Shown piece by piece: positions 10,897-57,679 of a DNA stretch of 64,000 nucleotides (the first letter of the stretch is position 1; each line of letters opens with the position of its first letter). Origin of the DNA: Streptomyces lydicus (lineage in GTDB: Bacteria > Actinomycetota > Actinomycetes > Streptomycetales > Streptomycetaceae); contig NZ_CP017157.1 in assembly GCF_001729485.1 (NCBI RefSeq), positions 2,170,001-2,234,000 on the forward strand, in the 5' to 3' direction. A program made the translations under genes and the position numbers. A model generated the notes under the pieces. The model ran no database searches, was not told where the DNA came from, and saw only the letters and a program-made list of their open reading frames with translations.

Positions 10897-10919
10897 AGTG
10901 TGCCGCCCGCCACTGACAA
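10897..10919 (-). promoter_or_regulatory. RecA-NDp/PafBC-type promoter of hrpB
   Basis: Read on the minus strand: TTGTCAGTG, 8 nt, then CACACT (expected TAnnnT, so one mismatch), then 6 nt to the GTG start. The 9-bp upstream block is perfect. Confidence 0.65.
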
Positions 10920-11000
10920 TGGACCGCCACGCACGACCGCACCGGGCTGCCGTCCCGCGCCGCCCGTCGGAGCCGCGTTCCGGTCAGCGCTCCGCTCGGG

Positions 11001-11822
11001 TCAGTGCTCCGCCTGGCACACGAAGATCGCCGTACCGGGGATCAGATGCCCCCGCAGCGGCGACCAGCCGCCCCACTCCTGGGTGTTCCAGTCCGGCCAC
11101 TCGGGCTCGACGAGATCCACCAGCCGGAACCCGGCCGCGACGACGTCCCGCACCCGGTCACCCAGCGTCCGGTGGTGCTCGACGTACACCGCGCGGCCGG
11201 TGTCGTCCTGTTCCACGTACGGCGTCCGGTCGAAATACGAGGCCGCCACCGACAGCCCCTCGGGCCCCGGCTCGTCGGGGAAGGCCCAGCGGATCGGGTG
11301 GGTGACGGAGAAGACGAATCGGCCGCCCGGCCGCAGTACGCGGTGCACCTCGCGCAGCACCCGCACCGGGTCCGCGACGAACGGCAGCGCGCCGTACGCG
11401 GAACACGCGAGGTCGAAGCTGCCGTCGCGGAACGGCAGCGCCCCGGCGTCCGCCTCCACCAGCTCGGTCGCGTCGCCCGGCGTTCCGTCGGCGATCCGCA
11501 GCGCGTGCTGCAGCTGCCGGTGGGAGAGGTCGAGCGCCACCGGGAGCGCGCCCTGGGCGGCCAGCCAGCGGGAGCACTGCGCCGCGCCGGCGCCGATCTC
11601 CAGGATCCGCCGTCCCTTCAGCTCGGCGGCCGGCCCCAGTAGCGCGGCGTCGGCCTCGTCCAGTCCTTCGGGGCCCCAGACGAACCGGTCGTCCCCGAGG
11701 AACGCCCCGTGCTCGGTCTGGTACTCGTCCGCGTTTCGGTCCCACCAGCCCCGGTTGGCGTGGCTGCTCTCGGTGTCCGAAGCGTCACGGCGGGTCGCCT
11801 CGGGCTCGTGGTCTTGGTTCAT
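11001..11822 (-). CDS. Class I SAM-dependent methyltransferase
   Basis: The 273-aa protein is a Rossmann-fold methyltransferase. Motif I is ILEIGAGAAQCSRWL, the acidic residue after strand 2 is in VALDLSHRQL, and motif IV-like FDLACSAYGALPFV and VLRPGGRFVFSVTHP follow, as in UbiE/COQ5-like (Methyltransf_11) enzymes. The substrate cannot be told. The N-terminal NRGWWDRNADEYQ is a common actinobacterial variant. The frame is open to 11918, but the ATG at 11822 fits the family length better. It is read divergently from rpsA, sharing the 375-bp intergenic region. Confidence 0.85.
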   Translation of the reverse strand: MNQDHEPEATRRDASDTESSHANRGWWDRNADEYQTEHGAFLGDDRFVWGPEGLDEADAALLGPAAELKGRRILEIGAGAAQCSRWLAAQGALPVALDLSHRQLQHALRIADGTPGDATELVEADAGALPFRDGSFDLACSAYGALPFVADPVRVLREVHRVLRPGGRFVFSVTHPIRWAFPDEPGPEGLSVAASYFDRTPYVEQDDTGRAVYVEHHRTLGDRVRDVVAAGFRLVDLVEPEWPDWNTQEWGGWSPLRGHLIPGTAIFVCQAEH

Positions 11823-11945
11823 CGCGCCTGTCGTCGTAGTCTTCGCTCTGCTTGTCGCTGCAGGGACTGTGAGGCCGTTCGACCTCGCGGAACACCGCGT
11901 GTGCCGGATATGGGGCAATCTGCCCCCGGTATGCGCGTTCGCGCA

Positions 11946-11974
11946 TTGACCGTGTCCGGCTGCCCCCGTATGCT
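11946..11974 (+). promoter_or_regulatory. Sigma-70 (HrdB)-type promoter of rpsA
   Basis: TTGACC (11946-11951), 17-bp spacer, TATGCT (11969-11974): a near-consensus housekeeping promoter. It lies about 220 bp before the rpsA start and implies a long 5' leader, common for ribosomal protein genes. The rest of 11823-12197 shows no other feature. Confidence 0.75.
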
Positions 11975-12197
11975 ACAAGTTGCGCTGCGGGCTTGCGCGC
12001 CTCAGACGGAGCAGGCCGCGCTCGCATCTGTATGTACCCCTCGGTTTTGAGGCGTTTCGGACGGTTCCGAGTGCTACGGCATTCATGGGCTTCCGGAGAG
12101 AGCGTCTCTGACACTGTCCGGCTTATGCAGAGGCGATACGGGCTCTCGGCGTAGCAGTACCTACGACTTCAATGTCCGTACCGGAGCCCTTTCCCAC

Positions 12198-13715
12198 ATG
12201 ACGAGCAGCACCGAGACCACCGCCACCACCCCGCAGGTTGCGGTCAACGACATCGGTAACGAGGAAGCTTTCCTCGCCGCGATCGACGAGACGATCAAGT
12301 ACTTCAACGACGGCGACATCGTCGACGGCGTCATCGTGAAGGTCGACCGGGACGAGGTCCTGCTCGACATCGGTTACAAGACCGAAGGCGTCATCCCGAG
12401 CCGTGAGCTCTCGATCAAGCACGACGTCGACCCCAATGAGGTCGTCGCCGTCGGTGACGAGATCGAAGCCCTTGTTCTCCAGAAGGAGGACAAGGAAGGC
12501 CGCCTGATCCTCTCGAAGAAGCGCGCCCAGTACGAGCGTGCCTGGGGCACCATCGAGAAGATCAAGGAAGAGGACGGCATCGTCACCGGTACCGTCATCG
12601 AGGTCGTCAAGGGTGGTCTCATCCTCGACATCGGCCTCCGTGGCTTCCTCCCGGCCTCCCTGGTCGAGATGCGCCGCGTCCGCGACCTTCAGCCCTACGT
12701 GGGCAAGGAGCTCGAGGCCAAGATCATCGAGCTGGACAAGAACCGCAACAACGTGGTCCTGTCCCGCCGTGCCTGGCTGGAGCAGACCCAGAGCGAGGTC
12801 CGCCAGACCTTCCTCACCACCCTGCAGAAGGGTCAGGTGCGCTCCGGCGTCGTCTCCTCCATCGTCAACTTCGGTGCCTTCGTGGACCTGGGTGGCGTCG
12901 ACGGTCTCGTCCACGTCTCCGAGCTGTCCTGGAAGCACATCGACCACCCGTCCGAGGTTGTCGAGGTCGGCCAGGAGGTCACGGTCGAGGTCCTGGACGT
13001 CGACATGGACCGCGAGCGCGTGTCCCTGTCGCTCAAGGCGACCCAGGAAGACCCGTGGCAGCAGTTCGCCCGGACCCACCAGATCGGTCAGGTCGTCCCG
13101 GGTAAGGTCACCAAGCTCGTTCCCTTCGGTGCGTTCGTGCGCGTCGACGAGGGCATCGAGGGTCTGGTCCACATCTCCGAGCTGGCCGAGCGCCACGTCG
13201 AGATCCCGGAGCAGGTTGTCCAGGTCAACGACGAGATCTTCGTCAAGGTCATCGACATCGACCTCGAGCGTCGCCGGATCTCGCTGTCGCTGAAGCAGGC
13301 CAACGAGTCCTTCGGCGCCGACCCGTCGGCCGTCGAGTTCGACCCGACCCTGTACGGCATGGCCGCGTCCTACGACGACCAGGGCAACTACATCTACCCC
13401 GAGGGCTTCGACCCCGAGACCAACGACTGGCTCGAGGGCTACGAGACCCAGCGCGAGGCGTGGGAGAACCAGTACGCCGAGGCGCAGCAGCGCTTCGAGC
13501 AGCACCAGGCTCAGGTCATCAAGTCCCGCGAGGCCGACGAGCAGGCTGCGGCCGAGGGCGCTGCGGCGCCGGCGGCGCAGGGTGGCGGCCAGGCTGGCGG
13601 CGGCCAGACCGGCGGCGGCTCCTACTCCTCGGAGTCGGCGGACAACTCCGGCGCCCTGGCGTCGGACGAGGCCCTCGCCGCGCTCCGCGAGAAGCTGGCC
13701 GGCGGCCAGAGCTGA
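12198..13715 (+). CDS. rpsA: 30S ribosomal protein S1
   Basis: The 505-aa protein has four S1 RNA-binding repeats (about residues 36-105, 123-188, 209-277 and 294-363), each with the GxVxxxxxFGAFVDL...GLVHxSEL pattern in the later copies. It helps recruit mRNA to the 30S subunit. Four repeats instead of the six in E. coli is normal for actinobacteria. An acidic C-terminal extension (380-470) leads into a Gly/Gln/Ala-rich tail. Codon use is less extreme than in neighbours (more GTT, GGT, TCC), as expected for a highly expressed gene. It has its own promoter and terminator. Confidence 0.98.
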   Translation: MTSSTETTATTPQVAVNDIGNEEAFLAAIDETIKYFNDGDIVDGVIVKVDRDEVLLDIGYKTEGVIPSRELSIKHDVDPNEVVAVGDEIEALVLQKEDKEGRLILSKKRAQYERAWGTIEKIKEEDGIVTGTVIEVVKGGLILDIGLRGFLPASLVEMRRVRDLQPYVGKELEAKIIELDKNRNNVVLSRRAWLEQTQSEVRQTFLTTLQKGQVRSGVVSSIVNFGAFVDLGGVDGLVHVSELSWKHIDHPSEVVEVGQEVTVEVLDVDMDRERVSLSLKATQEDPWQQFARTHQIGQVVPGKVTKLVPFGAFVRVDEGIEGLVHISELAERHVEIPEQVVQVNDEIFVKVIDIDLERRRISLSLKQANESFGADPSAVEFDPTLYGMAASYDDQGNYIYPEGFDPETNDWLEGYETQREAWENQYAEAQQRFEQHQAQVIKSREADEQAAAEGAAAPAAQGGGQAGGGQTGGGSYSSESADNSGALASDEALAALREKLAGGQS

Positions 13716-13772
13716 GCTCGCACCGACTGACGGCGACCCGCCGCTAGGCACCGGTCGCAGCAGCCGATAGAC

Positions 13773-13806
13773 GAAGGCCCGTTCCCCTCAGGGGGAGCGG
13801 GCCTTC
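13773..13806 (+). terminator. rpsA terminator
   Basis: A 15-bp stem, GAAGGCCCGTTCCCC against GGGGAGCGGGCCTTC with one G-U pair, has a short loop and lies 58 bp after the rpsA stop. Confidence 0.85.
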
Positions 13807-14162
13807 GCCGTGTCCTGGCCGCGCCTTCCTAGGCGTCGATCGGGATCCGCGCCGTTCAGGTGCGGCCCGTAGCCGCCCCGCGCCGTGAGTGCGGTGGCCG
13901 TCGGCGAGCCGGGTCCTTTCATCGGGCTTCGCGGTGGTGAGCGCGCCGTTGAGCTGTCTCGCTGTCGATACGTCGATATCGCGGACGGCCGAGCCGGTAG
14001 GGAGGGCGATAGCGGCGGCCGAAGCCCCTGACGGTGCGGGCGGCTGTGGCCGATGTGGCCAGGGGTGAATCTGTGGCGCGCGTCAAGGAAGCGAACTTCG
14101 CTCCTGCGTAGAGGAGTTGGTGGGTCGGGGGAGTGGCTGCGGGGGCGGCGAGAAGTGTGCGC

Positions 14163-14182
14163 GGGGGGGGGGGGGGGGGGGG
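14163..14182 (+). repeat. Uninterrupted run of 20 G
   Basis: A homopolymer of 20 G residues sits 111 bp upstream of the PAC2 gene start. The stretch 13807-14293 otherwise holds no gene I can support; the open frames across it are proline/arginine-rich artefacts. Confidence 0.9.
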
Positions 14183-14293
14183 CGGTGCGGCCGGGCGGGA
14201 GATGTCCGGAAGGTGCGGGGCGGGTCCGGCGGCCGGGAATGCCTGTGGGTGAGCATGCGTTGGCGTTCATGAGAACGAGGAGGAGCGGTCACT

Positions 14294-15247
14294 GTGTTGG
14301 ATCCCCAGAGTTTGTACACATGGGAGCCGAGCGGGCTCGCGGAGGTCGAGGCGTTGGCCTCCAGGGACTCCGCCGGCCTCGTGCTGCTGTACCACTTCGA
14401 CGGGTACATCGACGCCGGCGAGACCGGCGACCAGATCGTGCAGCGGCTGGTCGACGGCCTGCCCAACAAGGTCGTCGCACGCTTCGACCACGACCGCCTC
14501 GTCGACTACCGTGCCCGCCGGCCGCTGCTCACCTTCGAGCGCAACCGCTGGACCGCGTACGAAACCCCGAGCATCGAGCTGCGGCTGATGCGGGACACCA
14601 CCGACGCGCCGTTCCTGCTGCTCTCCGGCCCCGAACCGGACGTCGAGTGGGAGCGCTTCGCGGCAGCCGTGAAGGAGATCGTCGAGCGGCTCGGTGTGCG
14701 CCTGTCGGTCAACTTTCACGGCATCCCCATGGGTGTCCCGCACACCCGTCCCGTGGGCATCACCCCGCACGGCAACCGCACCGACCTGATGCCGGGGCAC
14801 GCCAGTTTCTTCGACGAGGCCCAGGTGCCCGGCAGCGCGGAGTCCCTCATCGAGTTCCGGCTGGCCGAGGCCGGGCACGACGTGCTCGGTGTGGCCGCGC
14901 ACGTGCCGCACTACATCGCCCGGTCCGCCTACCCTGATGCCGCGCTGACGGCTCTGGAGGCGGTGACGGCGGCGACCGGCCTGGTACTGCCGGGCGCGGC
15001 GCACTCGCTGCGTACGGAGGCGCTGCGGACGCAGGAGGAGATCGAGCGGCAGATCTCGGAGGGCGACGAGGAGATGGTCGCCCTGGTCAGCGGGCTTGAG
15101 CATCAGTACGACGCGGTGGCCGGCGCGGAGTCGCGGGGCAACCTTGTGGCCGAGCCGGTGGAACTCCCGTCGGCCGACGAGCTCGGCAGGGAATTCGAGC
15201 GGTTCCTGGCGGAGCGAGAGAGCGACGGTGGCGGGGGCGGCAGCTGA
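14294..15247 (+). CDS. PAC2 family protein
   Basis: The 317-aa protein matches the PAC2 (proteasome assembly chaperone 2-like) family found widely in actinobacteria. Conserved stretches include [16 protein letters not shown] (near 33-47), the [15 protein letters not shown] motif (near 138-152) and [11 protein letters not shown] (near 200-210). A direct role in proteasome assembly in Streptomyces is not established; the name rests on fold similarity. The start is GTG at 14294 after GAGGAG. Its neighbours, coaE and rpsA, are in their usual Streptomyces positions. The C-terminus is Gly-rich. Confidence 0.9.
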
Positions 15248-15298
15248 ACCCGGCTGAATCGGTCGTCCGCCGGCCGCCCCGGGGCGCCGGTGCACCGT

Positions 15299-15304
15299 AT
15301 AGCG
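15299..15304 (+). promoter_or_regulatory. Possible -10 element for leaderless coaE
   Basis: TATAGC/TAGCGT overlaps here, and the coaE ATG begins 6-8 nt later without a ribosome site between, as in leaderless genes. No convincing -35. Confidence 0.4.
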
Positions 15305-15311
15305 TGGGCGC

Positions 15312-15902
15312 ATGGTGAAGGTGGGGCTGACCGGCGGAATCGGCGCGGGCAAGAGTGAGGTTTCGCGATTGCTGGCGTCGTACGGCGCGGTCGTCGTGGA
15401 CGCGGACAAGATCGCACGCGAGGTCGTCGAGCCGGGTACGCCCGGACTGGCCGCCGTGGTCGAGGAGTTCGGGGAGGGCGTGCTCACCCCGGACGGCACG
15501 CTGGACCGGCCGAAGCTGGGCGGCATCGTCTTCAACGACCCCGAGAAACTCCAGGCGCTCAACGCGATCGTGCATCCACTGGTGGGTGCCCGCTCGGCCG
15601 AACTCGAGGCGTCGGCCGGGGCGGACGCCGTGGTGGTCCACGATGTACCGCTGCTGACGGAGAACGGCCTGGCGCCGCTGTACGACACGGTGGTCGTGGT
15701 CGACGCCGCGCCACAGACGCAGCTCGACCGGCTGGTGCGACTGCGCGGCATGGCGGAGGACGAGGCGAAGTCCCGGATGGCGGCTCAGGCGACGCGCGAG
15801 CAGCGGCTGGCGATCGCCGACCTCGTCATCGACAACGACGGGCCGCTGGAGGCCCTCGAGCCGCAGGTCCGCGCGGTATGGGAGCGGCTGCGGGGCGAAT
15901 GA
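15312..15902 (+). CDS. coaE: Dephospho-CoA kinase
   Basis: The 196-aa P-loop kinase phosphorylates the 3'-hydroxyl of dephospho-CoA, the last step of coenzyme A synthesis. Walker A is [13 protein letters not shown] (residues 5-17), DADKIAREV (31-39) is the family's substrate-binding motif, and the lid region carries RLVRLRGM. The length is that of the minimal enzyme, without the DUF2062- or UPF0157-type extensions seen in some actinobacteria. It probably has a leaderless mRNA. The cupin gene overlaps or directly follows its end. Confidence 0.96.
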
Positions 15903-15925
15903 GCCCGGACGGTAGCCTCGCCGCC

Positions 15926-19392: not shown

Positions 19393-19415
19393 TTGTCAGT
19401 GCCGTCTGCTTCCAT
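19393..19415 (+). promoter_or_regulatory. Weak RecA-NDp/PafBC-type promoter match before the SNF2 operon
   Basis: TTGTCAGTG is perfect, followed by 8 nt and TTCCAT (TAnnnT expected, second position differs). It points toward the SNF2 gene, about 205 bp ahead of its ATG. Confidence 0.35.
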
Positions 19416-30916: not shown

Positions 30917-32347
30917 TCAGACGACCTGCCGGATCTCGCCCCGGACGCGGTAGAACCCGCCCGAGGACGCCGACAGGTCATCGACGACGTACCGCGCGCC
31001 GGCCCGGCGTATGTGGCGCGGGAACTGGACGTTCCAGGACGGCTCGTAGCCGTCGGAGAGCACGTGCACCCGCAGCCGGCCGCCTTCCTGGACGCACTCC
31101 ACCACGATCCCGGACGCCGCCGCGGCCGGCACCGTCTGCACCGTCGCCGACGGGGTGTAAGTGGGCAGTGCGGCAGCCGACTTCACGTCCCGGGCCACCG
31201 GAACCGAGCCCGACCGGGCCGCGGTGACGGCCGCGTCGCTCGCGTCGACACAGACCAGCGAACCGTCGGTGGTGACCATGTACAGCTTCTCGTCCAGATA
31301 CTGCATCGACAGCGCCGAGCCGCCCCCGGTGCCGAGCTTCCACAGCCGGGTGCCGTCGGCCGCGAAGCAGTACACCGAGGAGGCCGAGTCGCCGGCGAAC
31401 ACATAGCGGCCGCCGGGCGCAGTGGCGCAGGAATAGACGACCGTGTCGCACCGGTAGGTGGCCTCCACGGCGCCACCGGATTTCGCCAGCCGCTGGACGA
31501 CCCGCCGGTCGGTGCCGGCGTACACCGCGTCGTCCTCCTGCCAGCCGAACAGCACCGCGCCCGTGGTGGGGGTGTGCCACAACTCGCCGCTGCCGTCGGC
31601 GCGGTAGGCGGTCACGCCGCGGCGGTGGCCGTGGTAGACGGCGTGTTCGTCCCGCCGCACCATCCAGGCGTGCTCGCCCGGGCTGCGCCGCGACCACTGG
31701 AACTCGTCCTCGTGGTCGATGACGGTCAGCCCGCCGGCGCGGTCGGCGACGTTGAGGACGCCCTCGCGGATGTCCAGCCAGAAGATGTCGACGTCGGGTG
31801 CGATGTCGTAGGCGGCGAAGGGGAGTTTCGACGACAGGTCGTAGACCGTGCCGTCGTCGCAGCCGGCGTAGATCCAGAAGTCGTCCGCCACCAGGCACTT
31901 GACGCCGGCGGGCAGCTGGTAGCGCGCCAGCACCTCGCCGTCGTGGCCGAGGGTGTGGACCTCGCCGTTCTGGTTGCCGACCCAGCAGCGGTCCTCGGCG
32001 ATGTGGATGCCGAACGCGGAGGCGCCGGTGCGGAACCGCCACAGCACGGGGGCGACCGCGCGGGCCGTCGACGGCGCGGAGGTGACCTGACGCCGCGTCA
32101 CGGGGCGGGCGGCGCGCCCTCCCGGCACCGCCGGCGCGTAGCCCTTGCGGACCTTCTCGCCGATCTTCCGGGCCGCCGCGGCCTGCGCCTTCTCGCGCGT
32201 CGGGAAGGAGGAGAGCTGCCGCTGCCCGTCCGCGCCGATGCGGCCGTAGCGCACCGACACGTCCGTGTCCCGCACCGTCACCTCGTAGAACTTGTGCGCC
32301 CCGGCGCCGTCCTGTGACAGTTCCAGATACGTCGTGGTCTCGGACAT
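30917..32347 (-). CDS. WGR-domain and beta-propeller protein
   Basis: The 476-aa protein starts with a WGR domain (about residues 1-75): YLELSQDGAGAHKFYEVTV, VRYGRIGADGQ (the WGR core here as YGR) and FPTREKAQAAAARKIGEKVRKGY. WGR domains bind DNA ends or nucleic acids in PARP1-3 and occur in bacterial MolR-type proteins. From about 100 on there are about six to seven PQQ/WD40-like blades (GNQNGEVHTLGHDGEVLAR, GCDDGTVYDLSSK, AYRADGSGELW, FAADGTRLWKLGTGG, TTDGSLVCVDASD), a propeller platform. It has an excellent ribosome site (GGAGGGGAG) and a perfect damage-type promoter about 50 bp upstream, which suggests a role in DNA-damage response. No enzymatic motif is visible. Confidence 0.88.
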   Translation of the reverse strand: MSETTTYLELSQDGAGAHKFYEVTVRDTDVSVRYGRIGADGQRQLSSFPTREKAQAAAARKIGEKVRKGYAPAVPGGRAARPVTRRQVTSAPSTARAVAPVLWRFRTGASAFGIHIAEDRCWVGNQNGEVHTLGHDGEVLARYQLPAGVKCLVADDFWIYAGCDDGTVYDLSSKLPFAAYDIAPDVDIFWLDIREGVLNVADRAGGLTVIDHEDEFQWSRRSPGEHAWMVRRDEHAVYHGHRRGVTAYRADGSGELWHTPTTGAVLFGWQEDDAVYAGTDRRVVQRLAKSGGAVEATYRCDTVVYSCATAPGGRYVFAGDSASSVYCFAADGTRLWKLGTGGGSALSMQYLDEKLYMVTTDGSLVCVDASDAAVTAARSGSVPVARDVKSAAALPTYTPSATVQTVPAAAASGIVVECVQEGGRLRVHVLSDGYEPSWNVQFPRHIRRAGARYVVDDLSASSGGFYRVRGEIRQVV

Positions 32348-32396: not shown

Positions 32397-32419
32397 ACCG
32401 TACGGCGCACCACTGACAA
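32397..32419 (-). promoter_or_regulatory. RecA-NDp/PafBC-type promoter of the WGR gene
   Basis: On the minus strand: TTGTCAGTG, 8 nt, TACGGT. It matches the TTGTCRGTG-N8-TAnnnT consensus at every defined position. The transcript would have a leader of about 40 nt with a strong ribosome site. Confidence 0.8.
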
Positions 32420-32977: not shown

Positions 32978-33520
32978 TCAGGCGTCCGCCAGGGCCAGCA
33001 GCTTGGTGACGGTGTTCCAGTTGCGGGCGGTGGCCGTCACCCCGAGAGGGGCGCGGCTCACCGTGTCGGCAAGCTTGGAGCGGCCGATGCCGCCCGGGCA
33101 CCACAGGTACAGTTCGCGCCCGACCAGCCGGAACCGGTCGGGCGCGAACGCGGCCTCGTCGAGCGCTTCCAGCCGCGAGGTGTCGGCCGGCACCGCCGAC
33201 AGGAACGTCACGTGCAGACTCTTGGGCTCCGGCACGGCCTGCGGAAAGGGATTCGCGGCGACCGCGGCGGCCAGCTCGTCGCGGGTCCGCACGACGACCG
33301 GCACGGTGAGGCCGAGCTCGGCGCCGATCGCGTCGTGCAGCACCCGGGCGGTCTCCTCCGGCGGCGTGCCGGGGTCGGCGAAGACGAGATTGCCGGTCTG
33401 GAGCAGGACGGAGACGTCCTGGAAGCCCAGCTTCTCGGCCAGCTCCAGCTGCCTGGCCTTGGGGAAGGAGTTGTGGCCGCCGACGTTGATGCCGCGGAGC
33501 AGAGCGATCTGACGGGACAT
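32978..33520 (-). CDS. DUF1697 family protein
   Basis: The 180-aa protein matches DUF1697, a family of unknown function with a ferredoxin-like fold. The N-terminal ALLRGINVGGHNSFPKARQLELAEKLGF and LQTGNLVF are the diagnostic motifs, and the C-terminal ATARNWNTVTKLLALA is also conserved. The ATG at 33520 lies 48 bp after the ogt stop on the same strand, so it is probably the second gene of the ogt operon and would share its damage-type promoter. Confidence 0.92.
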   Translation of the reverse strand: MSRQIALLRGINVGGHNSFPKARQLELAEKLGFQDVSVLLQTGNLVFADPGTPPEETARVLHDAIGAELGLTVPVVVRTRDELAAAVAANPFPQAVPEPKSLHVTFLSAVPADTSRLEALDEAAFAPDRFRLVGRELYLWCPGGIGRSKLADTVSRAPLGVTATARNWNTVTKLLALADA

Positions 33521-33568: not shown

Positions 33569-34144
33569 TCAGAAGAGCGGCGCGGGCAGCACGCCTTCGA
33601 GGGCCAGCAGCAGGCGTTTGGTCTCCAGACCGCCGCCGAATCCGCCGATCCCGCCGTCGCTGGCCACGACGCGGTGGCAGGGGACGACGACCGGCAGCGG
33701 GTTGGAGCCCATCGCCGCGCCCACCGCGCGGGCCGCGCCTGCCTCGCCCACCCGGTCCGCGAGGTACTGGTAGCCGACGACGCTGCCGTAGGGGACGTCG
33801 TCCGCCAGGGCGTGCAGCACCCGGGCGTTGAAACCCGAGGTCAGGGACCAGTCCAGGGGAACGGTGAAGGACCGCAGCTCCCCGGAGAAGTAGGCGGTCA
33901 GCTCGGCGGCGGCCGTCCGCAGATGAGGTGTCCCGGGGGCCGGCGGCCCGCCGAAACGCTGCTCCAGACGGGTCAGCGCGCGCCGGGTCCTCCGCTCGTC
34001 GGCGTGGAAGACCACCTGGGCCAGGCCGTCCCGGGTCGCGGCGAGGAGCAGCGGACCGATCGGGGTCTCCAGGCGCGTCCAGGCCCAGTCGCGGGGGCCC
34101 GCGGACCCCGGGGCCGGCTCCGGTACCTGCTCGGAATGCATCAC
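33569..34144 (-). CDS. ogt: Methylated-DNA--protein-cysteine methyltransferase
   Basis: The 191-aa protein repairs O6-alkylguanine by moving the alkyl group to its own cysteine. The active-site motif VVPCHRVVASDG (cysteine about residue 154) and the helix-turn-helix DDVPYGSVVGYQYLADRVG are clear. GTG 34144 lies 6 nt after the -10 TACCCT of a perfect damage-type promoter, so the mRNA is probably leaderless and the protein starts here; ATG 34141 is the next codon. This is the Ogt/MGMT class without an AdaA domain. It heads a two-gene unit with the DUF1697 gene. Confidence 0.95.
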   Translation of the reverse strand: MMHSEQVPEPAPGSAGPRDWAWTRLETPIGPLLLAATRDGLAQVVFHADERRTRRALTRLEQRFGGPPAPGTPHLRTAAAELTAYFSGELRSFTVPLDWSLTSGFNARVLHALADDVPYGSVVGYQYLADRVGEAGAARAVGAAMGSNPLPVVVPCHRVVASDGGIGGFGGGLETKRLLLALEGVLPAPLF

Positions 34145-34150: not shown

Positions 34151-34173
34151 AGGGTAGGACGTACCACTGACAA
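34151..34173 (-). promoter_or_regulatory. RecA-NDp/PafBC-type promoter of ogt
   Basis: On the minus strand: TTGTCAGTG, 8 nt, TACCCT, then 6 nt to the GTG start. Perfect match to the consensus. Confidence 0.8.
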
Positions 34174-35758: not shown

Positions 35759-35781
35759 TTGTCAGTGGCGGGTCGTACGGT
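35759..35781 (+). promoter_or_regulatory. RecA-NDp/PafBC-type promoter of uvrB
   Basis: TTGTCAGTG (35759-35767), 8 nt, TACGGT (35776-35781), then 7 nt to the uvrB ATG: a perfect consensus match and a leaderless layout. Confidence 0.85.
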
Positions 35782-35788: not shown

Positions 35789-37930
35789 ATGCGGCCCGTA
35801 TCAAAGATCGAACGCTCGGTGGCGCCCTTCGAGGTCGTCAGCCCCTACCAGCCCAGTGGCGACCAGCCGGCGGCCATCGCCGAGCTGGAGAAGCGCATCC
35901 GCGGCGGTGAGAAGGATGTCGTCCTGCTGGGTGCGACCGGTACCGGCAAGTCGGCGACCACCGCGTGGATGATCGAGAAGCTGCAGCGCCCGACGCTCGT
36001 CATGGCGCCCAACAAGACCCTCGCGGCGCAGCTCGCCAACGAATTCCGCGAGCTGCTGCCGAACAACGCGGTCGAGTACTTCGTCTCCTACTACGACTAC
36101 TACCAGCCCGAGGCGTACGTCCCGCAGTCCGATACGTACATCGAGAAGGACTCCTCGATCAACGAGGAGGTCGAGCGGCTGCGGCACTCCGCGACGAACT
36201 CGCTGCTCACCCGGCGTGACGTCGTGGTGGTCGCCTCTGTGTCCTGCATCTACGGCCTGGGCACGCCGCAGGAGTACGTCGACCGGATGGTCCCCCTGAA
36301 GGTCGGCGACGAGATCGACCGCGACCAGCTGCTGCGCCGCTTCGTCGACATCCAGTACACGCGCAACGACCTGGCGTTCACCCGGGGCACCTTCCGGGTC
36401 CGCGGCGACACCATCGAGATCTTCCCGGTGTACGAGGAGCTCGCCGTGCGGATCGAGATGTTCGGCGACGAGATCGAGGCGCTCTCCACGCTGCACCCGC
36501 TCACCGGCGAGGTGATCAGCGAGGACGAGCAGCTGTACATCTTCCCGGCCAGCCACTACATCGCCGGCCCGGAGCGGATGGAGCGGGCCATCGCCGGCAT
36601 CGAGGCCGAGCTGGTGGAGCGCCTCGCCACCCTGGAGAAGCAGGGCAAGCTGCTGGAGGCCCAGCGGCTGCGGATGCGCACGACGTACGACATCGAGATG
36701 ATGCGGCAGATCGGCTCCTGCTCGGGCATCGAGAACTACTCCATGCACATGGACGGCCGTGAGCCGGGCTCCGCGCCCAACACCCTCATCGACTACTTCC
36801 CGGAGGACTTCCTCCTGGTCATCGACGAATCGCATGTCACCGTCCCGCAGATCGGTGCCATGTACGAGGGTGACGCCTCCCGCAAGCGCACCCTGGTCGA
36901 CCACGGCTTCCGGCTGCCCTCCGCCATGGACAACCGGCCGCTGAAGTGGGAGGAGTTCCTGGGCCGCATCGGCCAGACCGTCTATCTGTCGGCGACCCCC
37001 GGCCCGTACGAGCTCGCCCGGGGCGACGGCTATGTGGAGCAGATCATCCGGCCGACCGGGCTGGTCGACCCGGAGGTGGTGGTCAAGCCCACCGACGGGC
37101 AGATCGACGATCTGGTGCACGAGATCCGGACCCGTACCGAGAAGGACGAGCGCGTCCTGGTCACCACCCTCACCAAGAAGATGGCCGAGGACCTCACGGA
37201 CTACTTCCTGGAGCTCGGTATCCAGGTGCGCTACCTGCACAGCGACGTCGACACCCTGCGCCGGGTGGAGCTGCTGCGGGAGCTGCGATCGGGTGAGTAC
37301 GACGTCCTGGTGGGCATCAACCTGCTGCGTGAGGGCCTCGACCTGCCGGAGGTCTCGCTGGTCGCCATTCTGGACGCCGACAAGGAGGGCTTCCTGCGCT
37401 CCGGTTCGGCGCTCATCCAGACGATCGGCCGCGCGGCGCGCAATGTCTCCGGGCAGGTGCACATGTACGCCGACAAGGTCACCCCGGCGATGGAGAAGGC
37501 CATCGACGAGACCAACCGGCGCCGGGAGAAGCAGCTGGCGTACAACAAGGAACACGGCATCGACCCGCAGCCGCTCCGCAAGAAGATCGGCGACATCGTC
37601 GCCACGATCGCCCGGGAGGAGATCGACACCCAGGAGCTGCTGGGCTCGGGCTACCGCAAGGGCGGAGAGGCCAAGGACGCCAAGGCCAAGGCGCCGGTCC
37701 CGTCGCTCGGCGCGCACACCGGCAAGGCCGCCAAGGGCAAGGGCGGCAAGGCGGGCGAGGTGCTGACGGACCGTCCGGCCGCCGAACTGGCCGAGCTCAT
37801 CGAGGAGATGACGGAGCGGATGCGGGCCGCCGCGGCCGAGCTGCAGTTCGAGATCGCCGCCCGACTGCGCGACGAGGTGGGCGAGCTGAAGAAGGAGCTG
37901 CGGCAAATGAGGGAGGCCGGGGTGAAGTGA
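35789..37930 (+). CDS. uvrB: Excinuclease ABC subunit B
   Basis: The 713-aa UvrB verifies DNA damage and recruits UvrC in nucleotide excision repair. Motifs: Walker [13 protein letters not shown] (about residues 47-58), the beta-hairpin [21 protein letters not shown] (about 99-119), DESH Walker B (about 344-347), LSATPGPYE, helicase [11 protein letters not shown], and a C-terminal UVR domain (about 668-705; [29 protein letters not shown]) that binds UvrC. A Lys/Gly-rich insert (about 625-660) precedes it. ATG 35789 sits 7 nt after the -10 and has no ribosome site, so the mRNA is likely leaderless; GTG 35780 is in frame but inside the -10. Confidence 0.98.
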
Positions 37931-46432: not shown

Positions 46433-49459
<3,027 letters not shown>

Positions 49460-51756: not shown

Positions 51757-51784
51757 ACGTAAACGCTTGCGTAAGCGTTTACGT
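51757..51784. promoter_or_regulatory. LacI operator palindrome
   Basis: ACGTAAACGCTT (51757-51768), 4-nt spacer GCGT, AAGCGTTTACGT (51773-51784): a perfect 12-bp inverted repeat containing the AAACGCTT...AAGCGTTT type of LacI sites. It lies between the divergent LacI and dehydrogenase genes. Confidence 0.85.
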
Positions 51785-51846
51785 CCTGGCGGCTTTTCTG
51801 TAAGGTCCCCGGCATCGCACCAGCACGACGTCGTGAGGAGGCGCCG

Positions 51847-52863
51847 ATGCGCGCTCTCGTGGTCACCGCACCGGGCAATCCGGGGAGCACCGCGGTCACC
51901 GAACTGCCCGACCCCCGCCCGGAACCCGATGAGGTGGTCGTGCGGGTCACGTCCTGCGGGCTGTGCGGCACCGATATGCACCTCCTCGGCGGCGAACTGC
52001 CCGCCGCGGCCTACCCGTTGGTCCCCGGGCACGAGCTGACCGGCGAGATCGTGGCCGTCGGCGCGGCGGTCACCGGCCGGGCGGTCGGCGAGCGGGTCGC
52101 GGTCGACCCCAACATGCCGTGCGGCGCCTGCCACTACTGCCGGATCGGCCGCGGCAACCTCTGCGAGGACTACGCCGCGATCGGCGTCACCCGCGCCGGC
52201 GGCTTCGCCGAACTGGTCGCCGTACCGGAACGCTGCTGCTACGTCCTGCCCGACGGCCTCTCGGAAGCCGCGGCCGGGCTCGTCGAGCCGCTCTCCTGCG
52301 CGGTGCACGGCCTGAACCGGCTGCCGCGCCGCCCCGGCGAGCACTATCTGATCTACGGCGCCGGCACCATGGGGCTGATGATGGCCGCGCTCGTACGGAC
52401 CGCGGGCGCCGCCTCGGTCAGCGTCGTGGACCTCAACGAGGACCGGCTGGCGTTCGCCCGTACCTTCGGCGTGGACGCCGCCGCGACCGGCGCCGACCAG
52501 CTCCGCCGGACGCCCGGCTTCGAGGTCGTGATCGACGCGACCGGGGCCGTCGCGGCCATCGAGGACGGCCTGGGACGGGTGCGCCGCGGCGGCACCTTCC
52601 TCCAGTTCGGCGTCGCCGACCCGGCCCGTTCGGCGTCCTTCTCCCCGTACCGCGTCTACCACCACGAGATCGACATCATCGGCTCGATGGCGGTGCACAA
52701 CAGCTTCCAGCCGGCCATCGACCTGCTCGCCGCCGGCCTCGGCGGATTCGCCGTCGACTCACTGGTCAGCGACGTCTACGGGCTGGACGGCTTCGACGAG
52801 GCGGTGGCCCGCTTCCGGGCCGGCACCGGCCGCAAGATCCACATCGCCCCGCAGAAGGGCTGA
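51847..52863 (+). CDS. Zinc-dependent polyol/alcohol dehydrogenase
   Basis: The 338-aa MDR dehydrogenase keeps the catalytic zinc set (CGLCGTDMH, about residues 37-45, and GHELTGEIV, about 59-67) and the structural-zinc cysteines (CGACHYCRIGRGNLC, about 89-103). The NAD-binding loop is GAGTMGLMMAAL (about 173-184). It resembles sorbitol/arabitol-type dehydrogenases. It probably oxidises the polyol that the downstream porter imports; the substrate is unproven. Its ATG has GAGGAG upstream. The porter gene starts 6 bp after its stop. Confidence 0.93.
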   Translation: MRALVVTAPGNPGSTAVTELPDPRPEPDEVVVRVTSCGLCGTDMHLLGGELPAAAYPLVPGHELTGEIVAVGAAVTGRAVGERVAVDPNMPCGACHYCRIGRGNLCEDYAAIGVTRAGGFAELVAVPERCCYVLPDGLSEAAAGLVEPLSCAVHGLNRLPRRPGEHYLIYGAGTMGLMMAALVRTAGAASVSVVDLNEDRLAFARTFGVDAAATGADQLRRTPGFEVVIDATGAVAAIEDGLGRVRRGGTFLQFGVADPARSASFSPYRVYHHEIDIIGSMAVHNSFQPAIDLLAAGLGGFAVDSLVSDVYGLDGFDEAVARFRAGTGRKIHIAPQKG

Positions 52864-52869
52864 ACGACC

Positions 52870-54282
52870 GTGCCCGCACGCTTCAAGAACGCGCTGATCT
52901 GGGTCTTCGGTGCCCTCGGCGGCATCCTGTGGGGCTATGACACCGGGGTCATCTCCGGCGCCATGCTCTTCATCAAGAACGACATCGCCCTCACCCCGCT
53001 GCTGGAAGGTCTGGTCGTTTCGGGCCTCCTGGTGGGGGCCATGCTCGGCGCCGGCCTGTCGGGGCGGCTGAGCGATTCCTGGGGCCGGCGCCGGCTGATC
53101 CTCGCGGCCTCCGGGGTCTTCATCCTGGGCACCCTCGGCGCCGCCCTCGCCACCGGGGCGGCCGCGCTGATCGGCTTCCGGTTCGTCCTCGGCATCGGCG
53201 TCGGCATCGCCTCCGTCGTCGTCCCGCTCTACCTCACCGAACTCGCGCCCGCGCACGTCCGCGGCGGGCTGACCTCGCTGATGCAACTCCTGGTCACCGT
53301 CGGCATCTTCGTCGCCTACGTCACCGACTACCTGCTGGCCGGCGCCGGGGCGTGGCGCTGGATGATCGGCCTGGGCACCGTCCCCGCGGCGGTCCTCGCG
53401 CTGGGCATCCTCACCCAGCCGGAGAGCCCGCGCTGGCTGGTGGGCAGGGGCCGCAGCGCCGAGGCCCGCACGGTGCTGACCCGGCTGCGCGGCGACGCCG
53501 GGGCGGCGGGGCAGGAGCTGGCCGAGATCGAGCGGACCGAGCGCGCGGAACGGGAGCAGAGCGAGCCGCTGACCCTGCGCCGCCTGCTGTCGCCGCGGCT
53601 GCGGCCGGTGTTCGTGGCCGGCATGCTGCTGGTCCTCTTCCAGAACTTCGTCGGCATCAACACGATCATCTACTACGCCCCGACCCTGCTCACCGACATC
53701 GGGTTCGGCTCCGACGGCGCCATCCTCGCCAACGTCGGCATCGGCCTGCTCAACATGCTGATGACGCTGCCCGCGATGCGGCTGATCGACCGCAGGGGGC
53801 GCAAACCGCTGCTGCTCCTCGGGGCGCTGGGGATGTGCGCGGCGATGGTGCTGCTGGCCGTGACCAACCTCTCCGGGCTCGGCTACGGCGCGCTGCTCTC
53901 CGCCCTCACCCTGCTCGGCATCGCGCTGTACATCGGCTCCTTCGCGATCTCCTGGGGACCGGTGCAGTGGGTGATGCTGCCCGAGCTGTTCCCGATGCGG
54001 ATCCGGGCCGCCGCGGTGAGCCTGTGCGTGCTGTTCAACTGGCTGTTCAACATGGTCGTGGCGCTGCTCTTCCCGTCCCTGCTGCACGCCTGGGGCGCCG
54101 GGGCCAACTTCCTGATCTTCGCCGGAACGACCCTGCTGGCGTTCTGCTTCGTCCACAAGCTGCTGCCGGAGACCAAGGGCCGCAGCCTGGAGGAGATCGA
54201 ACAGGACCTGCTGCACGGTGGCCCGGCCCGGTCGGAATCGGCCCGCTCCGCCCCGGTATCGTCGGGGGCCGAAGCCGTCTGA
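52870..54282 (+). CDS. Sugar-porter family MFS transporter
   Basis: The 470-aa protein has twelve membrane segments and classic sugar-porter motifs: GGILWGYDTGVISGA (TM1), GRLSDSWGRRRLIL between TM2 and TM3, PESPRWLVGRGR after TM6, QNFVGINTIIYYAP in TM7, DRRGRKPLLL between TM8 and TM9, and PETKGRSLEEIE near the C-terminus. It imports a sugar or polyol, probably by proton symport. GTG 52870 starts 6 bp after the dehydrogenase stop, one operon. A Ser/Ala-rich tail ends the protein. Confidence 0.94.
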   Translation: MPARFKNALIWVFGALGGILWGYDTGVISGAMLFIKNDIALTPLLEGLVVSGLLVGAMLGAGLSGRLSDSWGRRRLILAASGVFILGTLGAALATGAAALIGFRFVLGIGVGIASVVVPLYLTELAPAHVRGGLTSLMQLLVTVGIFVAYVTDYLLAGAGAWRWMIGLGTVPAAVLALGILTQPESPRWLVGRGRSAEARTVLTRLRGDAGAAGQELAEIERTERAEREQSEPLTLRRLLSPRLRPVFVAGMLLVLFQNFVGINTIIYYAPTLLTDIGFGSDGAILANVGIGLLNMLMTLPAMRLIDRRGRKPLLLLGALGMCAAMVLLAVTNLSGLGYGALLSALTLLGIALYIGSFAISWGPVQWVMLPELFPMRIRAAAVSLCVLFNWLFNMVVALLFPSLLHAWGAGANFLIFAGTTLLAFCFVHKLLPETKGRSLEEIEQDLLHGGPARSESARSAPVSSGAEAV

Positions 54283-54303
54283 CCCCGTCGCCCTGGAGCA
54301 GCC

Positions 54304-54717
54304 ATGAGCAAGTCCCCCGCCCGCCGGACCGTGCTGCGGGGGGCCGCGCTCGCGGGTGCCGCCGGCTTCGGGCTGGCGGCCTGCTCGCCGGGGGACGCGG
54401 ACGGGAACGACTCGGGGGTGCCCGACAAGCCGGTCGAGCTGGGGGCCGCCGCCGACGTCCCGGTGGGCGGCGCCAGGCTCTACCGCGAGGACCGGCTGGT
54501 CGTCTCGCAGCCCACCAAGGGCAAGTACAAGTGCTTCAGCGCCAAGTGCACCCACGCCGGCTGCATCCTGTCCGACGTCGAGAAGAAGGAAGGCAGCTGC
54601 CCCTGCCACGGCAGCCGCTTCGACGTCACGACCGGCAAGGTCGTCCAGGGCCCGGCCGCCGAGCCGCTGCCCGAGGTCCCGGTCCGGGCCGAGGGCGGCA
54701 AGCTGATCGCCGGCTGA
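54304..54717 (+). CDS. Tat-exported Rieske 2Fe-2S lipoprotein
   Basis: The 137-aa protein has a twin-arginine signal (SPARRTVLRG, about residues 4-13), a lipobox LAAC (Cys27), and a Rieske domain with CTHAGC (about 80-85) and CPCHGS (about 100-105), which supply the two Cys and two His of the 2Fe-2S cluster. It would sit on the outer membrane face as an electron carrier. Partner oxidoreductase is not seen nearby. It starts 21 bp after the porter stop with GGAG upstream, so it may be read with that operon. Confidence 0.92.
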   Translation: MSKSPARRTVLRGAALAGAAGFGLAACSPGDADGNDSGVPDKPVELGAAADVPVGGARLYREDRLVVSQPTKGKYKCFSAKCTHAGCILSDVEKKEGSCPCHGSRFDVTTGKVVQGPAAEPLPEVPVRAEGGKLIAG

Positions 54718-54750
54718 GGCGGCCGGCCGCCCGGGCCCGGCGCCCCGCTG

Positions 54751-55686
54751 TCACCCCCAGTCCCAGCCGATCCCCAGGATGCCCGGCCGTACGCCCTGCT
54801 CCACGAGGTGGACCGCGTGGTGCCGGCCGCTGAGCGTCAGCTCCTGCTGGGCGCTGCGCGGGGCGCCCGCCGACGCCTGGGCGAAGCGGCGGCAGCGCAC
54901 CGGCAGCGCCGCCTCGTCGAAGCGCACCTGCAGGACGTACTGGCCGCCGGCGAAGCTGAAGCCGCGCAGGTACTCGGCGCTGGGGCCGCCGCTGCCGTCC
55001 TCGAAGGCGTAGCCGAAGACATGGGTCTCACCGGCCCGCAGCCGGGTGTCGAAGAGCAGCTCGGCGACCACCACCCCGGCCTCGGCGTCGCCGCGGACCC
55101 GGCCCAGGCGGCAGTTCTCCCCGGTCCGCACCCGTACCCGCGACGGATCGCAGCCCGTCTCGCCCCGGTGGATGGCGACGTAGCGGTCCACGCCGTCCCG
55201 GTGCGCGCGGACCACCTGCAGCGACTCCCGCTCGGCGAGCCGGCGGGCGGGGCCGATGCGTACCCGCTCGTGGTGGCCCACGGTGTGCAGCCCGCCGTCC
55301 GCGGGGATCTCCAGCTCGGTGAAGAGCCGCTGCAGCGTGCCGGCCGGCGCCACCAGCGAACGGTACGAGCGGGCGGCCGGGCGCTCGGCCTCCGGGCGTC
55401 CGCCCTCGGGGACCAGCAGCCGGTGCAGCGAGTGCGCGGGCAGGTCGAGCACCTCCTCCAGGGCACGCACCGCCCGCAGCGACTCCGGGCGCTGCGGGCG
55501 CCGGGCCCCCTGCTGCCAGTAGCTCAGGCTGGTCACCCCGATGGTGATGCCGCGCTGGGCGAGCTTGTGCTGGACGCGGGTGAGCGCGAGTCCGCGGGCG
55601 GTGAGCGCCGAGCGCAGCGCGAGGTGGAAGGGGCCGGTCCGCAGCAGCTGCGCCAGCTCGGCGGCCTGGGGAGCGTTCTGTGCCAT
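54751..55686 (-). CDS. Helix-turn-helix regulator of unknown type
   Basis: The 311-aa protein has an N-terminal XRE-like helix-turn-helix (about residues 18-62; LTRVQHKLAQRGITIGVTSLSYWQQGARRPQRPESLRAVRALEEVL) and a C-terminal region of about 200 aa rich in beta strands, without a known name. It matches hypothetical Streptomyces proteins in this chromosomal position. ATG 55686 follows GGAGGAACG. It is divergent from the secreted protease pair, which it may control; this is inference. Confidence 0.8.
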   Translation of the reverse strand: MAQNAPQAAELAQLLRTGPFHLALRSALTARGLALTRVQHKLAQRGITIGVTSLSYWQQGARRPQRPESLRAVRALEEVLDLPAHSLHRLLVPEGGRPEAERPAARSYRSLVAPAGTLQRLFTELEIPADGGLHTVGHHERVRIGPARRLAERESLQVVRAHRDGVDRYVAIHRGETGCDPSRVRVRTGENCRLGRVRGDAEAGVVVAELLFDTRLRAGETHVFGYAFEDGSGGPSAEYLRGFSFAGGQYVLQVRFDEAALPVRCRRFAQASAGAPRSAQQELTLSGRHHAVHLVEQGVRPGILGIGWDWG

Positions 55687-55926
55687 TGCCTCGTTCCTCC
55701 GGCGCGCCGGTGAACGTTCACAACCGGATCGCACGCCGCGCACTCTGCCTGCCTGTTCACTGCAGTACGCCGGGCACCGGCCGTTCACATCCGGGCCCGT
55801 TCGTACACACCCCCATGTCATTCCGCATTGAAGCGTGTTGACCTGCCTGCGACAACACCCGATGCTCCTTCGCAAGCATCCGGATGCGCTCCTCTCACCC
55901 CTCACCCCCCAGTCGGGAGGAACGCC

Positions 55927-56559
55927 ATGCTCCGTGCACTCCCCGCACGCCGTTCACGCCGCAGATGGTTCGCGGCCGCGGCGCTCACCGTCGGCGTACT
56001 GACCATGCTCCCGGGGACGGCCGCCGCCGCGGCCGGGCCCCCGGCGCACGCCCCCGCGCACACCGCGCCCGCCCTGCGCACCGCCAACCGCCTCGACATC
56101 GCCATGCAGGCCCAGGAGCAGACCAACTGGTGCTGGGCCGGCTCCGGCAACACCATCGCGGCCTGGTACGGCAGGAACTACAGTCAGAACCAGTTCTGCA
56201 ACGCCGCGTTCAACCGCGCGCAGGGCACCACCTGCCCCAACGACCAGGCCACCCTGGGCAATGTGCAGAACGCCTTCAACTGGATGGGCATCAGCCCGGG
56301 CTCCTACGTGACGGGATGGCTGCGCTACTCCACCGTCCAGACCGAGATCAACGCCAACCGTCCCATCGAGACCCGCATCCAGTGGGCCTCCGGCGGCGGC
56401 CACATGCACGTCGTCTACGGCTACGACACCGACCGCAACTGGGTCTACTGGGGCGACCCCTGGGCGTCCAACTACCGCTACAACTGGGGTGACTTCGGCT
56501 ACTACGTGAACGGCAGCTCCTTCTCCTGGACGCACTCCCTCTACCGGATAGGAGCCTGA
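55927..56559 (+). CDS. Secreted papain-like (C39-type) cysteine protease
   Basis: The 210-aa protein has a Tat- or Sec-type signal (about residues 1-35; RRSRRRWFAAAALTVG), a propeptide-like stretch, and a papain-like C39/C70-type fold: QTNWCWAGSGNTIAAWYG gives the catalytic Cys (about 74), GGGHMHVVYGYD the His (about 159) and YWGDPW the Asp (about 177). Such proteases cleave peptides outside the cell; the substrate is unknown. ATG 55927 is chosen because GGGAGGAACGCC precedes it. The partner gene starts 3 bp after its stop. Confidence 0.88.
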   Translation: MLRALPARRSRRRWFAAAALTVGVLTMLPGTAAAAAGPPAHAPAHTAPALRTANRLDIAMQAQEQTNWCWAGSGNTIAAWYGRNYSQNQFCNAAFNRAQGTTCPNDQATLGNVQNAFNWMGISPGSYVTGWLRYSTVQTEINANRPIETRIQWASGGGHMHVVYGYDTDRNWVYWGDPWASNYRYNWGDFGYYVNGSSFSWTHSLYRIGA

Positions 56560-56562
56560 ACC

Positions 56563-57465
56563 ATGACGAAGCGCACCGCAGTCCGCGCCGTCACCACCGG
56601 GGCGCTGGCCACCGTCCTGCTCGGCCTCGCGCCGCACGCCGCGCTCGCCGCACCGGTGCCCGCGCCCCAGGCCCCCGGACGGGCCGGCGTCGCCGCGGCC
56701 CGCGCGGCGGCCACCGACCCGGCGACCCTGGGCACCCTCGCCCGGTTCTTCGCCGCCGAACGGAAGCGCGGCGGCGGCGCGGCGGCCGCACCCGGCACCG
56801 CACCCGCCGCGCCGCACATCGAGGGCGGCACCGTCCCCGTCTACGCCCTCTCACCGGACTTCGTCCGCGGCCGGACCGCGGCCCCCGTCGCCCGTCTGGA
56901 GTTCCTCGCCAGCAAGGCGGTGGCCGCCGACGGCCGCACCGCCTCGGTGTGGACGGCACGCCGGGGCGGCACCTGGAAGGTCGTCAACATCGCGAGCGGC
57001 GACGACGAGACCCGCTACGCGGCGGCCGGGGCGGCCCGGGACGCGTCCGGCACGGTCTTCCACGAGCCCCAGATCGACGCCTGGTACCTCCAGCGCGGGG
57101 ACCGCGTCGAACCGCTGGACGCCGACGCCCGCAAGGCCGTCGGCGCCCACGGCACCACCGTCGACGCCTACCGGAAGCGGGTGGCGAAGGCGTACGGGGA
57201 CAAGCTGCCCGGCTCCGCGTACGACAAGCGGGGCGAGGCCGGCGGCTACGGGCCCGGTAGCAACGCCGGGGGCGGTAACGGGCCCGCCCCTGCCGCCGGG
57301 GCGCCGGCCGCCCGGCAGCCGGCCGAGGCGAGTGCCGTGACGGACGCCGTGACGGGCGGCGGCCTGCCGGTGACCGCCGCCACCACGGTGGCGGCCGCCG
57401 CCGCCCTGCTCGCCCTCGGCCTGTCCGCCGCGGCGGCCCTGCGGAGGCGCCGCGGCGGCCGCTGA
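56563..57465 (+). CDS. Membrane-anchored secreted protein, partner of the protease
   Basis: The 300-aa protein has a signal peptide (about residues 1-30, ending ALAAP), an extracellular domain (about 80-215; VYALSPDFVRG, RLEFLASKAVAADG, WKVVNIASGDDE), a Gly/Ala/Pro linker and a C-terminal membrane segment (about 268-290) followed by RRRRGG. It looks like a wall-exposed, membrane-anchored protein. No known family is recognised. Its ATG is 3 bp after the protease stop, so they are made together; it could be the protease's substrate, inhibitor or anchor. Confidence 0.82.
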   Translation: MTKRTAVRAVTTGALATVLLGLAPHAALAAPVPAPQAPGRAGVAAARAAATDPATLGTLARFFAAERKRGGGAAAAPGTAPAAPHIEGGTVPVYALSPDFVRGRTAAPVARLEFLASKAVAADGRTASVWTARRGGTWKVVNIASGDDETRYAAAGAARDASGTVFHEPQIDAWYLQRGDRVEPLDADARKAVGAHGTTVDAYRKRVAKAYGDKLPGSAYDKRGEAGGYGPGSNAGGGNGPAPAAGAPAARQPAEASAVTDAVTGGGLPVTAATTVAAAAALLALGLSAAAALRRRRGGR

Positions 57466-57550
57466 CGCGGAGCCACCGGGGCGGGCGAGGAGCCGCGGGC
57501 CGAGGCCGATCCCTCCGCCGGGCCGCTTTTCCCCGCCCCGGATCGCGTCC

Positions 57551-57593
57551 CCCCGCCCCCTCCCCCTCTCCCCCTTCGGGGGAGGGGGCGGGG
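57551..57593 (+). terminator. Terminator after the protease operon
   Basis: A perfect 15-bp inverted repeat (CCCCGCCCCCTCCCC with GGGGAGGGGGCGGGG, 13-nt loop) lies 85 bp after the stop. Confidence 0.75.
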
Positions 57594-57656
57594 GTGGGGT
57601 TCGGGGGTGGGGGGAGGAGCCCTCCGCACGCCTCGGCAACGGTCCGGAAACCGTGA

Positions 57657-57679
57657 TTGTCGGTGGCGGTCAGTAGGGT
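57657..57679 (+). promoter_or_regulatory. RecA-NDp/PafBC-type promoter of uvrC operon
   Basis: TTGTCGGTG, 8 nt, TAGGGT, then 7 nt to the ATG 57687. A perfect match (R=G) with a leaderless layout. Confidence 0.85.

Follow-up and report, generated by a model that had tools for sequence, protein, structure and literature searches.

The short elements that precede several DNA-repair genes of Streptomyces lydicus raise the question of whether this genus has a DNA-damage response that is independent of LexA. We analysed a window of 64,000 nucleotides (nt), which corresponds to positions 2170001–2234000 of the 8.2-Mb single-contig genome. The first-pass annotation of the window had described five copies of the pattern TTGTCRGTG-N8-TANNNT, located before hrpB, a WGR-domain gene, ogt, uvrB, and uvrC, and had compared them to the RecA-NDp/PafBC promoters of mycobacteria. 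All five copies are present, and each has the correct orientation and upstream position; four of them are exact, and the copy before hrpB has one mismatch in the −10 hexamer, as had been stated. The interpretation of the elements as RecA-NDp/PafBC-type, often leaderless promoters is strongly supported by their position, the functions of the target genes, their conservation, and the presence of pafBC beside pafA. Judging from the sequences, the elements are very likely promoters of the RecA-NDp type, recognised by RNA polymerase with the primary sigma factor and the PafB–PafC activator.

10897–10919, minus strand: RecA-NDp-like element before hrpB, one mismatch (CACACT at −10)
32397–32419, minus strand: RecA-NDp element before the WGR gene, exact
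34151–34173, minus strand: RecA-NDp element before ogt, exact
35759–35781, plus strand: RecA-NDp element before uvrB, exact
57657–57679, plus strand: RecA-NDp element before uvrC, exact

The −10 hexamer is separated by 6 nt from the GTG start codons of hrpB and ogt and by 7 nt from the ATG start codons of uvrB and uvrC, so that the spacing of 6–7 nt claimed for four of the five genes is borne out. The ATG of the WGR gene is located 49 nt downstream of the −10 hexamer, whereas in three relatives the distance is 7 nt. No RecA-NDp element was found near the start of uvrA, even when two mismatches were allowed, in agreement with the first-pass annotation; the best SOS-like box upstream of uvrA (46264) has three mismatches. 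An additional one-mismatch copy in the window (19393–19415, plus strand) was not counted, because it has lost the A at −11 and is not followed by a start codon within 8 nt. A two-mismatch match at 61369 falls within a yvcK-like gene.

Genome-wide occurrence and placement of the element

The exact pattern occurs four times in the window and is absent from 100 dinucleotide shuffles. Genome-wide scans, which used the 8-nt spacer only, located 39 exact copies, and the reversed pattern did not occur; with one mismatch allowed, the numbers are 129 (including the 39 exact copies) and 4, respectively. The placement of the sites was evaluated using gene calls from a home-made codon score. Thirty-eight of the 39 sites are located outside coding-like frames and one is inside, compared to 69% of 6000 random window positions that are inside. 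A motif as frequent inside genes as before them had been named as evidence against a regulon, and the scan does not show such a distribution. The start codon of a coding-like frame follows 5–8 nt downstream of 18 of the 39 sites, compared to 2.6% of random positions. The 9-mer is preceded by a purine in 37 and followed by a G in 29 of the 39 sites.

The genomes of five named Streptomyces contain 16–21 exact copies each, giving a total of 93 and none of the reversed pattern. The placement statistics and target clustering of the relatives are based on 90 of these sites, with three left out. Eighty-nine of the 90 are outside coding-like frames, and 47 have a start codon at 5–8 nt, with a sharp peak of 39 start codons at exactly 7 nt. 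The single relatives' site inside a frame (L194) and the one in S. lydicus (L004:1501–1523, minus strand) are exact copies that lie apparently within the same gene in two genomes. A 7-nt spacer is present in one uvrB locus (L262).

Three Streptomyces, S. exfoliatus, S. flavochromogenes, and strain NBC_00572, contain 19, 19, and 16 exact copies, and their WhiG proteins are 98–99% identical to the query 6pfj, which we take to be S. venezuelae WhiG. These three are therefore taken as near S. venezuelae; the counts are those of relatives and not of S. venezuelae itself, which is not among the WhiG matches listed.

Conservation within the genus

Genes that follow exact sites were clustered across six genomes, that of S. 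lydicus and those of the five named Streptomyces. The element precedes recA and a SWIM gene in all six, and ruvC, a gene encoding a protein with an HHH_RecD2 domain, dnaX, and an ABC permease gene in five. It is present before the WGR gene, a DnaN-type clamp gene, and two unknown genes in four genomes, and before ogt, uvrB, a macrodomain gene, and jetA, among others, in three. No exact site precedes a DnaN-type clamp gene in the S. lydicus genome. The WGR orthologue carries an exact element in three and the ogt orthologue in two of the five relatives.

Promoters of uvrB, uvrC, hrpB, and jetA were surveyed in the 30 best-scoring loci per gene within the genus, including those of S. lydicus, a sample that leans towards close relatives. 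The uvrB element is exact in 22 of 30 loci and within two mismatches in 29. The uvrC element is exact in two loci and within one mismatch in 13; its −10 hexamer TAGGGT is constant across all 30, and in 29 the ATG follows at a distance of 7 nt, while the −26 part drifts. For hrpB, the S. lydicus locus alone has the element; the other 29 loci have at least four mismatches, which is the control level, and hrpB was rejected as a conserved member. Neither of the controls in the uvrB, uvrC, and hrpB surveys was better than three mismatches. Because of the six-genome clustering and the 30-locus counts, the copies in the window can be graded: that of uvrB is solid, those of the WGR gene and ogt are good, that of uvrC is weak, and that of hrpB is private to this genome. 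The genes of the window discussed here are the following.

8263–10890, minus strand: hrpB (HrpB_C, DEAD, and Helicase_C domains), GTG start
30917–32347, minus strand: WGR-domain protein with a PQQ_2 propeller match, ATG start
32978–33520, minus strand: DUF1697 gene, on the strand of ogt and downstream of it
33569–34144, minus strand: ogt (O6-methylguanine-DNA methyltransferase), GTG start
35789–37930, plus strand: uvrB, ATG start
46433–49459, plus strand: uvrA
57687–59756, plus strand: uvrC, ATG start
59753–62744, plus strand: rapZ (59753), a gene of the CofD family regarded as yvcK (60703), and whiA (61755), overlapping and in the same direction as uvrC

The C-for-T change at the first base of the hrpB −10 hexamer occurs identically in a one-mismatch element (L052:444–466, plus strand; genome position 2168943; CAGGAT) located 1.06 kb before the window. 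By eye, the gene that follows resembles polA, and it seems to extend into the start of the window. The C-for-T variant may be functional, because it is also found before this polA-like gene, with a GTG 7 nt downstream. As a separate observation, the sporulation regulator whiA sits in the uvrC–rapZ–yvcK run (57657–62744), and WhiA might rise upon DNA damage.

Target genes

According to Pfam, the S. lydicus targets include the repair proteins RecA, UvrB, UvrC, RuvC, MgsA/RarA, UDG (ung), Ogt, and an AlkZ-like glycosylase, together with the replication proteins and helicases DnaE (PHP and polymerase III alpha domains), DnaX, and a UvrD-type helicase. Counted by gene identity, repair, recombination, or replication genes account for 11–13 of the 39 targets. 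The remainder includes the HHH_RecD2-domain protein, PhoH, the WGR and SWIM proteins, DUF6333 and DUF2797 proteins, and others; the gene after the L034 site has an HD domain match alone.

Several of the other targets form small groups. The SWIM zinc-finger gene is followed by a DUF5691 gene (L316:265–3501, plus strand; genome positions 7316264–7319500). Two 61-residue proteins that are alike by eye (L001:1311–1493 and L021:1311–1493, both on the minus strand) are each encoded by a gene whose ATG lies 7 nt downstream of an exact element. A small protein of about 90–100 residues without a known domain (L007:1536–1838, plus strand) has kept the element in four of the six genomes. In two relatives (L199 and L320), the element is followed by a gene that, by eye, resembles a sigma-factor gene, a parallel to the mycobacterial PafBC regulon with its SigG and SigH.

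Regulator and proposed mechanism

The first-pass annotation had suggested looking for pafB and pafC near the proteasome genes. The two genes adjoin each other and are located near pafA:

L042 7401–8762: pafA (Pup ligase)
L042 10504–11520: pafB, WYL-WCX gene near pafA
L042 11517–12491: pafC, WYL-WCX gene adjoining pafB, with a PF19187 (HTH_PafC) match of 106.8 bits

The best matches of the two proteins in the PDB are chains of 7p5x, 9fnd, 9fne, and 6sj9, one of which is named PafC and one PafBC. We take 7p5x, 9fnd, and 9fne to be Mycobacterium smegmatis PafBC with RNA polymerase and single-stranded DNA (ssDNA), and 6sj9 to be PafBC of A. aurescens, in part on the basis of residue numbering. The former assignment is in keeping with PMC11804915. 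In alignments, the residues related to ssDNA binding are kept (M. smegmatis numbering): Arg181, Tyr196, Arg204, Arg208, Arg211, and Arg214 of PafB, and Arg201 and Arg204 of PafC. According to PMC11804915, changing those PafB residues abolished ssDNA binding in M. smegmatis, whereas the PafC arginines alone were not needed for it; the same study places PafB on the −26 element and PafC on sigma domain 4. If the last T of the −10 hexamer is at position −7, the 9-mer spans −29 to −21, which fits the reported −26 element of PafBC.

The following mechanism is proposed. DNA damage would leave ssDNA, which would bind to the WYL domains of PafBC, as shown in M. smegmatis and as the conserved residues suggest for S. 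lydicus. PafBC would then join RNA polymerase, with the helix-turn-helix of PafB reading TTGTCRGTG around −26 and PafC docking on sigma domain 4, both of which were shown in M. smegmatis and are expected here. The polymerase would melt the TANNNT −10 hexamer and start transcription approximately 7 nt further on, which in about half of the targets would coincide with the start codon or lie beside it. Leaderless mRNAs would result; the positions of the start codons are observed, and those of the transcription starts are predicted. The outcome would be the induction of several dozen genes, rich in repair and replication functions, through a branch independent of RecA/LexA. We infer damage induction, LexA independence, and PafBC dependence from sequence comparison.

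Distribution in the phylum

In a phylum sample of 396 genomes, the exact motif is present in 93. All 12 genomes of the window's genus contain 10–40 exact copies, 306 in total compared to two of the reversed pattern. Of the 26 genomes that belong to the class but not to the genus, 19 contain the motif. Beyond the class, 62 of 358 genomes have 1–3 exact matches, compared to roughly 40 genomes, as counted by eye, with a match to the reversed pattern. PF19187 (HTH_PafC) is found in 296 of the 396 genomes, in 241 of them above its cut-off, and also matches five of 14 control genomes, and is thus a broad family. HTH_PafC and the exact motif thus do not go together one to one in the phylum (296 compared to 93 genomes). 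The cis-element has probably changed in lineages that have HTH_PafC and few or no exact motifs.

Relation to known systems

The S. lydicus set resembles the RecA-NDp/PafBC system of Mycobacterium (M. smegmatis and M. tuberculosis) in the promoter type, the recA, uvr, and ruv targets, the location of pafBC near pafA, and the presence of both an SOS box and a RecA-NDp promoter at recA. The correspondence to the exact mycobacterial RecA-NDp consensus is presumed. The S. lydicus set differs in that its targets include the WGR and SWIM proteins, dnaX, and a JetABC operon, and in that its induction is predicted.

The element is not new in kind, and RecA-NDp promoters are already known in Streptomyces. 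That they reach beyond mycobacteria into other Actinobacteria is stated in PMC8223512. The UV-inducible recA promoter of S. rimosus, TTGTCAGTGGCN6TAGggT (Ahel et al. 2002, as quoted in PMC2375139), has the same element before the same gene, which is preceded by an exact copy in all six genomes compared here; that work, by its title, concerns one gene. The SIGffRid section of PMC2375139 (2008) reports TGTCAGT-N14-TNG motifs in S. coelicolor and S. avermitilis, which are the same motif as that described here. It predicts the motif before 67 S. coelicolor genes, among them 13–20 repair genes including ung, uvrB, radA, and dinG, and also dnaE and dnaN; that section contains no regulator, leaderless starts, or JetABC. 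PMC5087735 describes a RecA-NDp promoter before the UV-inducible macrodomain gene SCO6735. A macrodomain gene carries the element in three of the five named relatives, whereas none was recognised among the S. lydicus targets scanned. The LexA/SOS regulon of S. venezuelae, as presented in PMC9380542, overlaps with the set at recA and ruvC and depends on a different element and repressor.

Alternative explanations

The observations that weigh against RecA-NDp/PafBC promoters concern the targets, their conservation, and the regulator. About two thirds of the 39 S. lydicus targets are not recognised as genes of repair or replication. For at least three sites (L004, L022, and L041), no clear gene is found just downstream. 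The hrpB copy is not conserved, and that of uvrC is conserved in part only. Among the 26 genomes from other genera of the class, seven (G139, G204, G214, G225, G257, G268, and G343) have a strong HTH_PafC match and no exact motif, so that the presence of PafC does not predict the motif. Within the S. lydicus genome, PF19187 matches nine places, and another PafC-like regulator is therefore possible. Finally, a first search reported in PMC9380542 (2022) suggested that the M. smegmatis PafBC motif is not conserved in S. venezuelae. The earlier assignment to the RecA-NDp/PafBC pattern holds with respect to position, targets, conservation, and the pafBC pair beside pafA, and has to be given up for hrpB as a conserved promoter and qualified for uvrC, the −26 part of which drifts, and for recA, which also has an SOS box.

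The additional PF19187 matches, together with another WYL activator of the genotoxic response in M. smegmatis (described in PMC10693628), would be consistent with a different activator, for example another WYL or PafC-like protein, reading the element in place of the pafBC pair by pafA. This is unlikely, given that the motif equals the known RecA-NDp motif and that the pair by pafA retains the tested ssDNA-related residues.

It is quite unlikely that the genes are mainly controlled by LexA and that the element is merely a basal promoter. An SOS-type box begins 87 nt upstream of the recA element, and its first 14 letters are identical to the published recA box of S. venezuelae; SOS-like boxes within three mismatches are found near eight of the 39 sites compared to three of 39 control stretches. 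However, a box within two mismatches is present at only one of the 39 sites, and SOS control of most sites was rejected.

A dedicated alternative sigma factor, for which the 9-mer and TANNNT would be the two boxes of a promoter, is suggested by the origin of the S. coelicolor and S. avermitilis motif in a tool built for sigma-factor sites, but is very unlikely: the 12 nt from TTGTC to TANNNT are too short for a −35/−10 pair, on which ground a sigma-factor site was rejected, and TANNNT is a −10 hexamer of the primary-sigma type.

A chance run or dispersed repeat, for which the shortness of the element and the one copy within a gene could speak, is refuted by placement and conservation, including the absence of the pattern from shuffled and reversed controls and its orthologous placement in many genomes, and the first-pass judgement that chance is unlikely is upheld.

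JetABC operon under the element

One exact RecA-NDp element (L018:1501–1523) precedes an operon (L354:7472–14845, plus strand; genome positions 3157971–3165344), the first gene of which matches JetA3 of PADLOC with 626 bits and the third JetC3 with 1404 bits. The middle gene encodes a protein of approximately 320 residues that is conserved in five of five operon regions and has no PADLOC match as JetB. The jetA gene is present in 98 of 101 genomes of the genus. Among the 30 best jetA loci of these 98 genomes, the element is exact in 15 and within one mismatch in 20, and the GTG of jetA is located 6–7 nt after the −10 hexamer in all 30; controls never had fewer than four mismatches.

Six JetD_C proteins used as queries matched nothing in the five operon regions, although a much diverged JetD could escape such a search. 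JetD_C was found in six of 31 genomes, all 31 of which have jetA. In the three of the six that have both on one contig, JetD_C never adjoins jetA, and in the other three they are on different contigs. JetA and JetC are present, but the JetD nuclease was not found in the operon, and the assignment as Wadjet was rejected. MksBEF of Pseudomonas is, according to PMC10586767, a likely derivative of JetABCD that has lost JetD and acts on the chromosome. Because of the missing JetD, the MksBEF precedent, and the upstream element, we infer by analogy that the JetABC operon encodes a chromosomal SMC complex under damage control rather than Wadjet.

A more far-reaching proposal can be put forward tentatively, with somewhat more doubt than confidence: Streptomyces would have a second, PafBC-driven damage response, the core of which would include a near-universal JetABC SMC complex without the JetD nuclease. 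This complex would act as a condensin inducible by damage and would either descend from the anti-plasmid Wadjet system or be its ancestor, and the WGR and SWIM proteins would be new members of the response.

Implications for Streptomyces

The elements constitute a real, conserved set of RecA-NDp promoters in a genome with intact pafBC. The system is of a known kind, in a genus that has been little tested. What is novel is the evidence from several genomes that counters the published doubt, together with the JetABC, WGR, and SWIM members; we do not claim that the JetABC finding is unpublished. The existence of a RecA/LexA-independent damage response in Streptomyces was described as still to be shown in 2022, after a failed motif search, in PMC9380542. 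Every Streptomyces genome examined has the cis-element, namely 12 of 12 genomes of the window's genus in the phylum sample and five of five named ones. Its targets are rich in repair genes, by identity, in the six genomes compared, and the regulator is intact in the one genome inspected closely. The list of target genes offers candidates for a role in the response to DNA damage: the WGR protein, the SWIM protein, the DnaN-type clamp of the relatives, and the JetABC operon.

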